Assembly: GCA_003244255.1 (NCBI GenBank)
Contig: QHCD01000053.1
Location: forward strand, 1-64,000
From: Pseudonocardiales bacterium
GTDB taxonomy: Bacteria; Actinomycetota; Actinomycetes; Mycobacteriales; QHCD01
Length of the DNA: 64,000 bases
Direction: 5' to 3'
Position numbers and translations under genes: made by a program. This document shows, piece after piece, positions 1 to 59,611 of the stretch; the first letter of the stretch is position 1, and each line of letters begins with the position of its first letter. The notes beneath the pieces are model-generated. The model made no database searches and was not told the origin of the DNA. It saw only the letters and a program-made list of their open reading frames with translations.

Positions 1-732
1 TGCGAGGGCAAGGGACCGTTCCGGTGGGTCGCTCTGTCCGGCGACCCCGCCGACATCGCGCGCACCGACGACGCCATCCTCGAGCTCTTCCCGCAGAACG
101 AGTCGCTCGCCCGGTGGATCCAGCTCGCGCGCGAGAAGGTGCGCTTCCAGGGCCTGCCGGCTCGCATCTGCTGGCTGGGCTACGGCGAGCGAGACAGGGC
201 CGGGGTCGTGTTCAACGACCTGGTGGCACGTGCTGAGGTCCGGGCGCCGATCGTGATCGGCCGCGACCATCTCGACTGCGGATCGGTCGCGTCGCCGTAC
301 CGGGAGACCGAGGGCATGGCCGATGGCTCCGACGCGATCGCCGACTGGCCGCTGCTGAACGCGATGGTGAACGTCGCGTCCGGTGCGACGTGGGTGTCGA
401 TCCACCACGGTGGCGGTGTCGGCATCGGGCGGTCCATCCACGCCGGGCAGGTGTGCGTCGCGGACGGGACGCCGCTCGCGGCGGCCAAGATCGAGCGGGT
501 GCTCAGCAACGACCCCGGCATGGGCGTGATCCGCCACGTCGACGCGGGCTACGACGAGGCGCGCAAGGTCGCCCGGTCCCGTGGCGTGCAGGTGCCGATG
601 GCCGCCGACGCAATCGGTGCCGCGGAGGCGGAGGGGGATGAGGCCGCCGACGCAATCGGTGCCGCGGAGGCGGAGGGGGATGAGGCCGCCGACGCAATCG
701 GTTTCGCGGAGGCGGAGGGGCACCGCGCGTGA
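1..732 (+). CDS. hutU: urocanate hydratase (urocanase), C-terminal part
   Basis: Urocanase converts urocanate to imidazolonepropionate in histidine degradation, using tightly bound NAD. The window opens inside the gene, so the N-terminal part is missing. The visible 243 residues match the urocanase C-terminal domain: ALSGDPADI, the [17 protein letters not shown] stretch, the [11 protein letters not shown] and [20 protein letters not shown] stretches, and the [13 protein letters not shown] loop. After the normal end of the family (near VQVPMAA) there is an extra Ala/Glu-rich tail made of three 14-residue repeats, which is not expected in HutU. The stop overlaps the next start by 4 bp, so this is the upstream gene of a coupled hut operon. 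The identity is clear; the tail is unexplained. Confidence 0.95.
601..726 (+). repeat. 42-bp tandem repeat, three copies, at the hutU 3' end
   Basis: Units start at 601, 643 and 685. The first two are identical, and the third diverges after the phrase encoding AADAIG. The unit is a multiple of three and adds in-frame copies of [14 protein letters not shown] to the urocanase C terminus, ending at the GTGA junction with the next gene. Confidence 0.9.
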
Positions 733-1937
733 ACGCGTCGTTCGCGACCATGTGGGCCGAGCTCGCCCCGATCGGCCGTGATGCGCGTACCGGCGGGTAC
801 CGGCGCTTGGCGTGGACCCCGGCCGAGCGCGAATGCCGTTCGTGGTTCTACGGCCAGGCGCAGTCGCGCGGACTGATCGTCGACGCCGACGGTAACGGCA
901 ACGAGGTGGCCTGGTGGTTCCCCGACGGCGCACCGGCCATCGGCGGCGTCGTCACCGGCAGCCACCTGGATTCCGTTCCCGACGGCGGCGGCTACGACGG
1001 TCCGCTCGGCATCGTCTCGGCGTTCGCGGCGATCGACCAGCTGCGCTCACGCGGCGTGCTGCCGACCCGGCCGATCGGCGTCGCGGCATTTGCCGACGAG
1101 GAGGGCTCGCGGTTCGGCATCGCCTGCCTCGGGTCGCGGCTGCTCACCGGCGCCGTCGACGCCGACCGAGCAGCGGCGCTGCGCGACGGCGACGGGAGAT
1201 CGCTTCCAGACGCGATGCGCGATGCCGGATTCGACCACCAGCTAGGCGAATCGCAGCTTCTCGGCGGCGTGGCTGCCTTTGTCGAGCTGCACGTGGAACA
1301 GGGTCGCGCACTGGCCGACGTCGACGCGGCGGTGGGGATCGCGACCGAGATCTGGCCGCACGGCCGGTGGCGGTTCGACATCGACGGCGAGGCCAACCAC
1401 GCCGGCACCACGCCCCTCTCCGACAGGCACGACCCGATGCTCACCTACGCCGAAACGGCCCTCGCAACGCGGAAGAAGGCGCTGCTCGCGGGGGCCGTCG
1501 CGACCTTCGGCCGGATCGAGGTGCTGCCCAATGCCGCCAACGCGATCCCGTCGTGCGTGCGAGCGTGGCTCGACGCCCGCGCGCCCGATGAGTCCACCCT
1601 GCACGCGCTGATCGCCGACCTGCTGGCGCACGCCGTCCGGCGCGCGGATCGAGACGGTACGGCCCTGCAGGTCACGGCCGAGTCGATCAGCCCGGCGGTG
1701 TCCTTCGCCGGCCCGCTGACCGACCGCATCCGGCGCGTCCTGCCCGTCGCGCCGCTGCTGCCCACCGGGGCAGGTCACGACGCCGGAATCCTTGCCGCAG
1801 CGGGCATTCCGACCGCGATGCTCTTCGTGCGCAATCCCACCGGCATCTCGCATGCACCCGCCGAGGCGGCGACCGAAACGGACTGTCTCGCCGGGGTCGA
1901 CGCCCTCGCCGGCGTGTTTGCCGATCTGGCCGTCTGA
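729..1937 (+). CDS. M20-family Zn amidohydrolase of the hut operon (allantoate amidohydrolase / carbamoylase type)
   Basis: This 402-residue protein belongs to the hydantoinase/carbamoylase branch of the M20 metallopeptidases. The metal-binding and catalytic motifs appear in order: [36 protein letters not shown] in the dimerisation part, and GAGHDAG followed by [10 protein letters not shown] near the C terminus. Homologues are usually named allantoate amidohydrolase. No other allantoin gene is nearby. It sits between hutU and hutF, overlapping hutU by GTGA (729-732) and hutF by one base. HutF makes N-formylglutamate, and no HutG-type deformylase is visible here. I infer that this enzyme removes the formyl group from N-formylglutamate. 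The family is certain; the substrate is inference. Confidence 0.85.
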
Positions 1938-6692: not shown

Positions 6693-7284
6693 CGGGCCAG
6701 CCTATCGGGACCACAGTGCAACCCATCGGTGTGCACAACGTGGGGAGAATCTGTGGACGGCGTGATGCGCGTGGTGGAGAAGCTGGGGGCTACCTGTGAC
6801 TTGCCGCTCGGCGCCAAGAATGTTGTCCGAAGCCCTCGTGCAGCAAGGATTTCAGGCGGTACAAATTCCGCACTCGCTTCTTCGGGAGTGAGGGATCGGA
6901 TCGAGAAACCAGGCCCTTGTGACCACTCGGCGCAAGTCGGGGCGGTCGGCCGGCCGGTGACGCGGCTCGGCGGAGGTGGAGAACGGTCCGTGAGGTGGTC
7001 GTGACCTCGCGGTGCAGAAGTCGTGCAGAACCGGTGGATAACCTGGGGACCTCCTGTGGGCCCAGCCGTGGGCCAGAACTTTCTCGGCCAAGATCGCCGA
7101 AAAGGCTTGTGCCACAGCGCAATCGCGGTGTACAAAGTTGGCACTTGCTTCCTCGGAAGTGAGGGATCGGATCGGAAGGCGCGTCTAGGCATGCGGTGCG
7201 AGCCGCGAGCCAGCTGGCCGGTGACGCGACCGGCGGGCGGGCCGGATGATCCGGGAGATCGGGAGCGTCACGCTCGATCACGGC

Positions 7285-7315
7285 AAGCCCCGCGGACTCA
7301 TACTCCGCGGGGCTT
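7285..7315 (+). terminator. 12-bp perfect stem, loop CTCATAC, end of repeat unit 2
   Basis: The arms AAGCCCCGCGGA (7285-7296) and TCCGCGGGGCTT (7304-7315) pair perfectly around a 7-base loop. The hairpin looks like an intrinsic terminator but lacks a long T tract. A small GAGCG/CGCTC hairpin sits just upstream at 7262-7274. Confidence 0.55.
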
Positions 7316-7622
7316 CGTCGTATCTGCGCCCGTCCTGATCCTGTGCACGGTGATGGGGACATGTTGTGGACCTGGCCGCGCGTGGTGTGTACAACATGTG
7401 AGTGTCGTGTGGATTGCAGGAAAGTTGGCGGAAACCGCCGGAAACACTTGTGCCGCAGGCGAATGAGCGGGTAGACATCTCCTTACTCGCTTCTTCGGGA
7501 GTGAGGGAACGGACTGAGGACCAGGTTCGTGGCAGGCGGCGCAAGTCGCGTGCCGGCCGGCCGGTGACGAGGCTGGTGGACTTGGGGAGAGGTCCGGGAG
7601 GTCGGGAGTGTCACGCTCGGCC

Positions 7623-7665
7623 AAGGCGAGGCCCCGCGCACTCATACTGCGCGGGGCCTCGCCTT
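7623..7665 (+). terminator. 18-bp perfect stem, loop CTCATAC, end of repeat unit 3
   Basis: The arms at 7623-7640 and 7648-7665 pair perfectly (AAGGCGAGG... with ...CCTCGCCTT). The stem sequence differs from that of unit 2, yet the loop CTCATAC is identical. This is the pattern expected when the structure, not the stem sequence, is kept. Confidence 0.6.
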
Positions 7666-7768
7666 AATTGTGTATTAGACGACGTCGTCAGCCCGATCCT
7701 GCGTAGCGACACGCGCTCGCGGCGCCCGGCGGGACGAAGCAACCGCCCGAGGACCGGACCTTCGATCT

Positions 7769-7798: not shown

Positions 7799-8062
7799 GT
7801 GGAGCGGATTGGGGTTCGAGAGCTTCGGCAGCACGCGAGCCGCTACCTCGACCGGGTCAAGTCAGGTCACACCGTCGAGATCACCGAGCGCGGGCAGTTG
7901 GTAGCGCTGCTCGTGCCGCCTGACCCGGCCCGCGGCGCGCGGGAGCGGCTGATCGCGCAGGGTCGGCTGATCCCGTCGGCCGAAGCGTTGCGATTGCCGC
8001 AGCGGGTCGAGGCCGGCAGGACAAGCGAGGCGGTGCTCGACGAGTTGCGCGAGGATCGGTGA
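7799..8062 (+). CDS. type II antitoxin, Phd/YefM-like (VapB partner)
   Basis: This 87-residue protein starts VERIGVRELRQHASRYLDRVKSG, followed by EITERGQLVALLVPP, the typical N-terminal DNA-binding fold of Phd/YefM antitoxins. The C-terminal part is the likely toxin-neutralising tail. The GTG at 7799 directly follows GGAG, too close for a standard ribosome binding site, and lies 7 bases after a -10-like hexamer, so a leaderless mRNA is likely. Its stop overlaps the toxin start by 4 bp (GTGA), so the two proteins should be made in coupled fashion. A palindrome upstream is a probable autoregulatory operator. Confidence 0.85.
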   Translation: MERIGVRELRQHASRYLDRVKSGHTVEITERGQLVALLVPPDPARGARERLIAQGRLIPSAEALRLPQRVEAGRTSEAVLDELREDR

Positions 8063-8454
8063 TATACCTCGATTCCTCGGCACTGCTGAAGCTGCTGTTC
8101 GAGGAGGACGAGAGCGCCGCCTTGGAGCGGTGGATGTCCGAACGGGCAGGTGCACCGACGCTGAGCAGCGAACTGGCGAAGGTTGAGGTCGTCCGCGCCA
8201 CGCGACGTCTCGATACGGACGCGGTCCCCGCAGCACGAGCGCTGGTGTCCCAGCTCGACCTGATCCCGCTGAGTGGAGGCCTGATCGATGCGGCCGTGGA
8301 TGCCGGTGGACCCGCGCTGCGCACCCTTGACGCGCTCCACCTCGCAAGCGCGCTGTCGATTCGCACCGAGCTGACGGCCTTTGTCGCCTACGACAACCGA
8401 CTGATTGCCGCCGCTGAGGCAGCCGGCCTCGAACCCACCCGGCCCTGTTGTTGA
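8059..8454 (+). CDS. vapC: PIN-domain ribonuclease toxin, VapC family
   Basis: This 131-residue PIN-domain protein has the acidic residues of the Mg-dependent nuclease site: Asp5 in IYLDSSALLKL, the Glu of SSELAKVEVVRA, the Asp of LRTLDALHLASAL, and a late Asp in FVAYDNRLI. VapC toxins cleave tRNA or rRNA and are held inactive by the cognate antitoxin encoded just upstream. The GTG start overlaps the antitoxin stop. The length is normal and no damage is visible, so the pair looks functional. The RNA target cannot be predicted. Confidence 0.9.
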   Translation: MIYLDSSALLKLLFEEDESAALERWMSERAGAPTLSSELAKVEVVRATRRLDTDAVPAARALVSQLDLIPLSGGLIDAAVDAGGPALRTLDALHLASALSIRTELTAFVAYDNRLIAAAEAAGLEPTRPCC

Positions 8455-55883: not shown

Positions 55884-55902
55884 CCTGCTCGCGTGCTATC
55901 GT

Positions 55903-56025
55903 CCGGCCGCCAACTGCACAGCTGGAAAATTGCTTGCCCAGCAGGGAAAGCCGGTGTGAATCCGGCGCTGACCCGCAACGGTGACCATCTCCTGCGAGAC
56001 GGAAGCCCGATCACCTGCCGGTGCG
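55903..56025 (+). promoter_or_regulatory. cobalamin riboswitch (B12 element) with no downstream gene
   Basis: The conserved core is clear: GGGAAAGCCGGTGTGAATCC (55944-55963) followed by GGCGCTGACCCGCAACGGT (55964-55982), and the end block GCCCGATCACCTGCC (56005-56019). This is the canonical B12 box layout on the plus strand. No plus-strand gene follows; the next feature is the 3' end of a convergent permease gene from 56097. It is either a relic of a lost cobalamin transport or synthesis gene, or it controls an antisense or small transcript. Confidence 0.88.
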
Positions 56026-56096
56026 TAGCGGCTCCGCGATCGCCGCATCGGGATCCATCGCGTCTTTGGGGGGACCCCTAGCCGCCGGGGCGCCGC

Positions 56097-59047: not shown

Positions 59048-59611
59048 GGCTGCCCCGCGTCGTTGTAAGGAGGTGACCGCTTCACTGTGATCCGGACACG
59101 ACGGGATGTCAAGACCCAGACCGGTCGAGGCGGGCATGTCGGCTCTCGGTGGTTCCGGGCGAGGATGACCCCTGGTCGGGCCAGCTCGGCGGCGCTCGCG
59201 GTGGCGTCGTAATTGCCGTTGCCGCGATGCGCGCAGCGGCCTATGGTCGGCGCCGATCGGTTCCTTCGCTGCGCCAGGAGGCATATGTGGTGATCACGCA
59301 CCGCGGCACGATGGCCTGATCCAGGGGACGACGCCGTCGCCGGTGCGACGGGATGACACCTACCGGTGGCAGCTGGCAATCGCCGGCTGACAGTGGCCGA
59401 GACAAACCCACAACCTCGGTCGAGGTCCGGATCCGGGATTGAGACATCCCGGTGAAGCGGGAACCGGAAGTAATCGCCGACCCAGCGGAACGGCGGTGAA
59501 TCGAGTCACTCGCCCGTCCAGCCCGAGAGCCGTGCCGCATCCTCGGCGCGGTGAGAACCAACGGAACCCTGCGCCTGCACGTCGAATTCGCTTCGACTGC
59601 GGGAGCAGGCC
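59048..59611. other. intergenic region upstream of the Cys-rich peptide and RNHCP genes
   Basis: These 564 bases should contain promoters for the minus-strand peptide/permease pair and the plus-strand RNHCP gene. No convincing gene, RNA or inverted repeat was found. An AAGGAGGTGA sequence at 59069-59078 on the plus strand is not followed by a plausible gene. Confidence 0.4.

Follow-up and report, generated by a model that had tools for sequence, protein, structure and literature searches.

Three tandem units in the window

The DNA analysed here comes from a Pseudonocardiales bacterium (GCA_003244255.1, contig QHCD01000053.1, positions 1-64,000, forward strand), and this whole 64-kb stretch is referred to as the window. 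Between positions 6730 and 7675 it carries three tandem units with a common order of elements, in which an array of short boxes is followed by a -35/-10 promoter-like pair and by the region of a predicted RNA. The neighbouring genes encode DedA and a Phd/PIN toxin-antitoxin pair. The latter, a Phd/YefM antitoxin with a PIN-domain toxin, occupies positions 7799-8454 and starts about 125 bp past the last sRNA terminator. The elements of the units are listed below; distances of boxes are given from the -35, RNA starts of units 2 and 3 were inferred from the -10, and bit scores refer to the covariance models R1 and R2 introduced further on.

6730-6757, plus strand: unit 1 box array, TGTGCA at 6730, TGGGGA at 6741, TGTGGA at 6752 (-106, -95, -84); fourth box at 6773
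6836-6865, plus strand: unit 1 putative promoter, -35 TCGTGC (6836-6841), 18-bp spacer, -10 TACAAA (6860-6865)
6871-7010, plus strand: unit 1 RNA, decaying copy with 5' hairpin and central stem region, terminator missing and pseudoknot partner lost (R1 108.5 bits; R2 45.3 bits)
7033-7060, plus strand: unit 2 box array, GGTGGA at 7033, TGGGGA at 7044, TGTGGG at 7055 (-74, -63, -52)
7107-7136, plus strand: unit 2 putative promoter, TTGTGC (7107-7112), 18-bp spacer, TACAAA (7131-7136)
7142-7325, plus strand: unit 2 RNA (R2 134.6 bits, E 1e-32, this copy being part of R2)
7342-7370, plus strand: unit 3 box array, TGTGCA at 7342, TGGGGA at 7354, TGTGGA at 7365 (-106, -94, -83); further box at 7408 (-40)
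7448-7477, plus strand: unit 3 putative promoter, TTGTGC (7448-7453), 18-bp spacer, TAGACA (7472-7477)
7484-7675, plus strand: unit 3 RNA, about 190 nt (R2 141.9 bits, E 1.3e-34, this copy being part of R2)

The units seem to be three tandem sRNA genes, two putatively intact and one decaying. A terminator hairpin with a CUCAUAC loop closes units 2 and 3, and unit 1 is without such a terminal stem. Units 2 and 3 fold much more stably than their dinucleotide shuffles (z -4.6 and -6.5, respectively), and unit 1, the decaying copy, is no different from them (z 0.2). The possibility of a coding relic was ruled out, as the copies have no common reading frame and their indels are not in threes.

A preliminary description of this stretch had reported short stems at 6871-6890 (CACTC/GAGTG), 7142-7161 (CACTT/AAGTG) and 7484-7503 (TACTC/GAGTG), with the loop GCTTCYTCGG in all three, and two terminal stems sharing the loop CTCATAC. 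All of these were found again, the two CTCATAC loops being located at 7297-7303 and 7641-7647. The compensatory changes that it had invoked are real double changes in the terminator stems, but the short stem has only one of them among the three copies (C-G to U-A), the other change being C-G to U-G. If the short hairpin is instead folded as a stem of 8 bp closed by a YNMG tetraloop, the three copies differ by one-sided changes only. Taken from the window copies alone, the argument from compensation is thin, or at best modest, and only the addition of homologues from further genomes makes it strong.

Putative promoters and upstream box arrays

The promoters proposed for the window units consist of a -35 hexamer TYGTGC, an 18-bp spacer and a -10 hexamer TACAAA or TAGACA, which ends about 6 bp before the 5' hairpin. 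A sigma-70 consensus scan of the units returned no promoter, because the hexamers are non-consensus. A matching -35/-10 layout is present at a fixed distance before dozens of homologous units, and the terminator hairpin is likewise present in dozens; the U tracts behind the terminators are weak. At the level of sequence features, the units have a putative promoter and a putative intrinsic terminator of their own, as a stand-alone sRNA gene would. One of the readings first offered for this locus, that of an array of small RNAs with terminators, is supported by the promoter-like hexamers lying in the same place before each hairpin and by the terminators that follow two of the three.

Each window unit has three TGTGGA-type boxes, 11-12 bp apart, and paired boxes occur within the 64-kb window only before these units. 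Between the boxes and the -35 there are whole numbers of helical turns, and the array of unit 2 is displaced by three whole helical turns compared to those of units 1 and 3. Among 61 nonredundant units, 114 boxes have the orientation of the RNA and 29 the reverse one. Measured from the -35, they cluster at -42, -53, -64, -74, -85, -95, -106 and -118, with a period of 10.7 bp and a resultant length R of 0.83, a phasing statistic that overstates independence, the units being related, and whose nominal p-value is not to be taken literally. Box density is 0.098 per kb near the hairpins, compared to 0.003 per kb elsewhere.

The array consensus, C-TGTGGA-C/T-A-A-C, resembles the DnaA box (TTGTCCACA / TTATNCACA), a likeness of sequence alone, and the box consensus CTGTGGACAAC corresponds, when read on the opposite strand, to the actinobacterial DnaA box together with flanking bases. 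A copy of TTGTGGACAAC lies near dnaA in the Pseudonocardiales genome to which the window belongs. A sizeable share of units has no box array, or has it replaced by a palindrome, GCGTGTC-N-GACACGC, so that no single activator explains all of them. These palindromes, which precede a subset of units and are absent before those of the window, contain GACAC, a known WhiA motif (PMC3781837). DnaA and WhiA are both putative regulators. The GACACGC motif also recurs 55-75 nt past the CTCATAC loop, at a near-constant distance, in many homologous loci.

Consensus fold and covariation

The consensus fold consists, in order, of a 5' hairpin (H1), a three-way junction in which P2 encloses P3 (with a GNRA-type loop) and P4, a further hairpin (P5) and the terminator hairpin, and the loops of P4 and P5 pair with each other as a loop-loop (kissing) pseudoknot. 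In units 2 and 3 these elements were placed as follows.

7144-7163, plus strand: unit 2 H1, 5' hairpin with a YNMG-type tetraloop
7168-7253, plus strand: unit 2 three-way junction, P2 7168-7174/7247-7253 with 7182-7186/7235-7239, P3 7191-7208, P4 7214-7233
7221-7271, plus strand: unit 2 pseudoknot, P4 loop GUGACG (7221-7226) with P5 loop CGUCAC (7266-7271)
7257-7280, plus strand: unit 2 P5 hairpin
7284-7316, plus strand: unit 2 terminator hairpin, invariant loop CUCAUAC (7297-7303)
7486-7505, plus strand: unit 3 H1
7510-7596, plus strand: unit 3 three-way junction, P2 7510-7516/7590-7596 with 7524-7528/7578-7582, P3 7534-7551 (GNRA loop GCAA), P4 7557-7576
7564-7614, plus strand: unit 3 pseudoknot, GUGACG (7564-7569) with UGUCAC (7609-7614)
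7600-7623, plus strand: unit 3 P5 hairpin
7628-7660, plus strand: unit 3 terminator hairpin, loop CUCAUAC (7641-7647); the inverted repeat extends over 7623-7665

In an alignment of 15 full-length units (A6), double changes were found in 36 of the 57 pairs, compared to 20.3±2.7 for shuffled and 12-18 for slid versions, with 88.5% of cells paired and a covariation score of 0.389 versus 0.185. Since the fold is partly derived from the 15 sequences it is scored on, the pseudoknot provides the decisive test, the covariance model R2 having been built without it. Among units not used to build R2, 171 of the 174 pseudoknot cells are paired, a count which omits rows gapped at those columns (mostly variant cores). 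Over all 44 distinct sequences, 256 of 264 cells are paired, while shuffling gave a mean of 236 and a maximum of 244, and none of 100,000 shuffles did as well. Double changes occur at all six pseudoknot positions, as illustrated by the pairs GAGACG/CGTCTC, GTAACG/CGTTAC, ATGACG/CGTCAT, GTGGCA/TGCCAC and GTGATG/CATCAC. The terminator stem varies in sequence, while its CUCAUAC loop is unchanged throughout 44 homologues.

Homologues and their distribution

Plain DNA searches of the same family (2 genomes) and the same order (200 genomes) gave only chance fragments beyond the window, hence the need for a covariance model. R1, built from the three window copies with the terminator left out, had a single full-length match (E 1.7e-12), which belongs to another family and lies at a locus with two tandem units whose terminators also have the CTCATAC loop, even though R1 contained no terminator. 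A pattern scan of GTDB species genomes for the CTCATAC loop with six fixed stem bases on each side returned 92 stretches, overwhelmingly from Nocardioidaceae, the remaining ones being from a few Pseudonocardiales and Frankiales MAGs, Propionibacteriaceae, a Micrococcales MAG and Saccharibacteria, in addition to a few chance matches; R1 detects full units in many of these stretches (E 1e-5 to 2e-18). The hairpins of two Candidatus Saccharibacteria loci (L054 and L096) are perfect and have the CTCATAC loop; Saccharibacteria live on Actinobacteria.

At E<=1e-3, R2 matched 26 of the 299 genomes sampled from the same order, a few of the lowest-scoring matches being unrelated terminators; at E<=1e-4, it matched 57 of the 395 genomes sampled from the class Actinomycetes, in at least 15 families. 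The RNA-bearing taxa include Nocardioides and other Propionibacteriales, N. iriomotensis having one clear unit (L074). Almost no matches were obtained in a phylum-wide sample of 297 genomes, and no convincing unit in the sampled genomes of two families tentatively labelled Mycobacteriaceae-like (f8) and Streptomyces-like (f33). Weak R2 matches in four f8/f16 genomes (G066, G077, G206 and G265) have neither the CUCAUAC loop nor the rest of the unit and were rejected as unrelated terminators. No match was obtained either in the closest relative with a sequenced genome (G001, same family, 97% complete), so the RNA would be dispensable or fast evolving. Genomes often carry two to four loci, and tandem copies are present in the window, at L071 and L127, and in G107. 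The covariance models thus built brought up homologous units elsewhere with abundant compensatory changes, and no match to a transposon end or a coding relic was seen, which bears out the selection on structure proposed in the preliminary description.

CTCATAC hairpins are rare and linked to the present family: in genomes G000 and G107 they occur only at units, and other sampled genomes have a few solitary ones. Counted over five sampled genomes, they are mostly at units, the rest being similar solitary hairpins or unpaired chance matches. This hairpin census, together with genome pattern counts, ruled out CTCATAC as a generic terminator loop. Viral carriage was also rejected: five viral contigs match the terminator pattern, with only two weak model matches and no clear unit.

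Variant forms and gene context

In a second RNA type, which keeps the promoter and the terminator, GNRA-capped hairpins form part of a 5' three-way junction. Behind this junction comes a hairpin domain which is absent in L195 and present as a threefold tandem in L166 (genome G152, minus strand of the match region). A short form in Nocardioides, adjoining add, contains little beyond the 5' hairpin and the terminator. Such modular gain and loss of hairpin domains would be easier to reconcile with an RNA that binds protein than with an antisense RNA that has a single seed. Solitary CUCAUAC hairpins, with no full unit, are found at the 3' end of protein genes at L055, L062, L211, L216 and other Nocardioides loci, and several of these genes encode adenosine deaminase.

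In Nocardioidaceae, the neighbours of the units are an oligoribonuclease-type exonuclease (orn), a DsbA-like protein and adenosine deaminase (add). In the G085 group, the unit adjoins dcd and in some genomes lies just upstream of it. What lies downstream differs widely from locus to locus, and in several cases (e.g. L107) the downstream gene is convergent, which indicates a stand-alone RNA rather than the leader of a particular gene.

Comparison with known RNA families

The preliminary description knew of no named RNA family with this layout, and this is in agreement with Rfam 15, which at gathering thresholds gave no relevant match over the units of the window and of 17 homologous loci. The same was true of 9 loci at E<=0.05, the relaxed-E matches over the units (Cgb105, sodF and miRNA models) being noise. 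A search of the literature on the loop, on Nocardioides RNAs and on phased DnaA boxes, which was not exhaustive, found no description of the family.

By size and range, the closest described actinobacterial RNA is Ms1 (MTS2823 / scr3559), a stand-alone sRNA of ~200-300 nt which is reported from many of the same groups, including Nocardioides, and whose defining traits are synteny with a HAD hydrolase and binding to RNA polymerase (PMC9130861). Ms1 is described as 6S-like and HAD-linked, whereas the present RNA has other neighbours, a pseudoknotted junction, multiple or tandem copies and an invariant end loop; the two are set apart by description, not by sequence. No HAD hydrolase or "inhibition of morphological differentiation" gene was identified beside the window units or at 19 homologous loci, where neighbouring ORFs were checked, ten of their proteins by Pfam. 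6S RNA (RF00013) is similar in size and in its stand-alone transcription (predicted for the present RNA), but it is a single long hairpin with a large central bubble, while the present consensus is a three-way junction with a pseudoknot and has no Rfam match. CoRP of corynebacteria, which binds RNA polymerase as 6S does, is likewise a lineage-specific structured RNA of Actinobacteria (PMC11077062); in contrast, the sampled Mycobacteriaceae-like family gave no convincing unit of the present RNA, the comparison being one of descriptions only. Csr/Rsm-type sponge RNAs share the repetition of hairpin modules seen in the variant cores, but the present RNA does not have the GGA loops that recur regularly in them, and CsrA is not known as a typical protein of Actinobacteria.

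Proposed mode of action

The units probably represent a family of stand-alone structured sRNAs of about 190 nt, absent from Rfam and present in many Actinomycetes. Comparative data give good support to the existence of a conserved family of structured RNAs preceded by an unusual promoter array; the transcription, partner and function of the RNA are what we infer from them. Most likely, the RNA would be abundant and bind protein, with a phased activator array of DnaA-box-like sites driving its promoter. The RNA would be transcribed from its own sigma-70-type promoter, which a protein bound to the array would activate from the DNA face used by RNA polymerase. The boxes read like DnaA boxes (CTGTGGACAAC), and DnaA-like activation through them is proposed tentatively, with somewhat more doubt than confidence. 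The RNA itself would be compact, would work in trans and would bind protein, for which the exposed CUCAUAC loop would serve as a fixed recognition element, and the chances that protein binding is its mode of action may be put at just short of even. That all parts hold together, i.e. that this is an unrecognised class of Actinobacteria RNA in which helically phased DnaA boxes let replication-initiation status set the level of a modular, pseudoknotted, CUCAUAC-recognised protein-binding RNA, is a speculative and rather unlikely proposal. Points against the main reading are the solitary CUCAUAC hairpins that follow protein genes, the missing match in the nearest relative, the weak U tracts, the non-consensus hexamers and the units whose box array is absent or replaced.

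The invariant loop could instead belong to a base-pairing regulatory RNA, in which it would pair with GUAUGAG in target mRNAs, start codons being one possible place, and the remaining fold would be a scaffold for stability. Seed loops are the typical invariant part of base-pairing sRNAs, and here the 7 nt are unpaired and unchanged in the 44 homologues while the stem changes; the short Nocardioides form, which has little more than this loop's hairpin and the 5' hairpin, fits as well. However, the elaborate junction and pseudoknot are conserved too, which is unusual for a mere scaffold, and this alternative is on balance improbable. An RNA-polymerase-binding RNA, i.e. a functional counterpart of 6S, Ms1 or CoRP, is considered less probable still. 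Its length, predicted promoter and stand-alone nature would agree with such a role, and unrelated RNAs are known to replace 6S in actinobacteria (PMC11077062; PMC9130861), but there is no 6S-like long hairpin with a large central bubble, the examined neighbours are orn, dsbA-like, add, dcd and DedA and not the Ms1-linked HAD hydrolase, and several copies per genome with varying cores fit poorly.

A cis-acting attenuator or riboswitch, consisting of an aptamer plus terminator in tandem, was rejected on gene context and is very improbable: the pseudoknotted junction followed by a terminator does have the layout of a transcriptional riboswitch, and some units stand just before dcd, but there is no consistent set of downstream genes in the same direction, convergent ones occur as at L107, and the folds showed no antiterminator partner for the terminator arms. 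Equally improbable is a structured DNA element, the other reading of the preliminary description (e.g. a DnaA-titrating locus or a mobile-element end), which would account for the DnaA-box-like arrays and for hairpins with a conserved loop but is weakened by pseudoknot and junction compensation that makes sense for a single strand, with G-U intermediates, by the one-sided order of promoter and terminator, and by the lack of any noticed transposase-like or target-duplication signature.

The RNA would thus form a new family within a known kind, the structured small RNAs that stand alone, and there is a real chance that its mechanism is new. Its occurrence in at least 15 families of Actinomycetes, often in several copies, and its absence from Rfam suggest a sizeable gap in the RNA inventory of this medically and industrially central class, and a whole class of RNA seems to have been overlooked. 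The phased arrays make a sharp prediction about the driving regulator, and the invariant loop offers a direct handle for finding the partner in cultivable Nocardioides.

Other features of the window

An imperfect repeat is encoded at the end of the reading frame at 139-732 (window positions 600-740). A cobalamin riboswitch (RF00174, 39.3 bits) lies at 55887-56036. At 59363-59501, an isolated match of 139 nt to the 3' part of the bacterial SSU rRNA (model positions 929-1367) was found outside an rRNA operon; it is apparently a fragment or an internally deleted piece.
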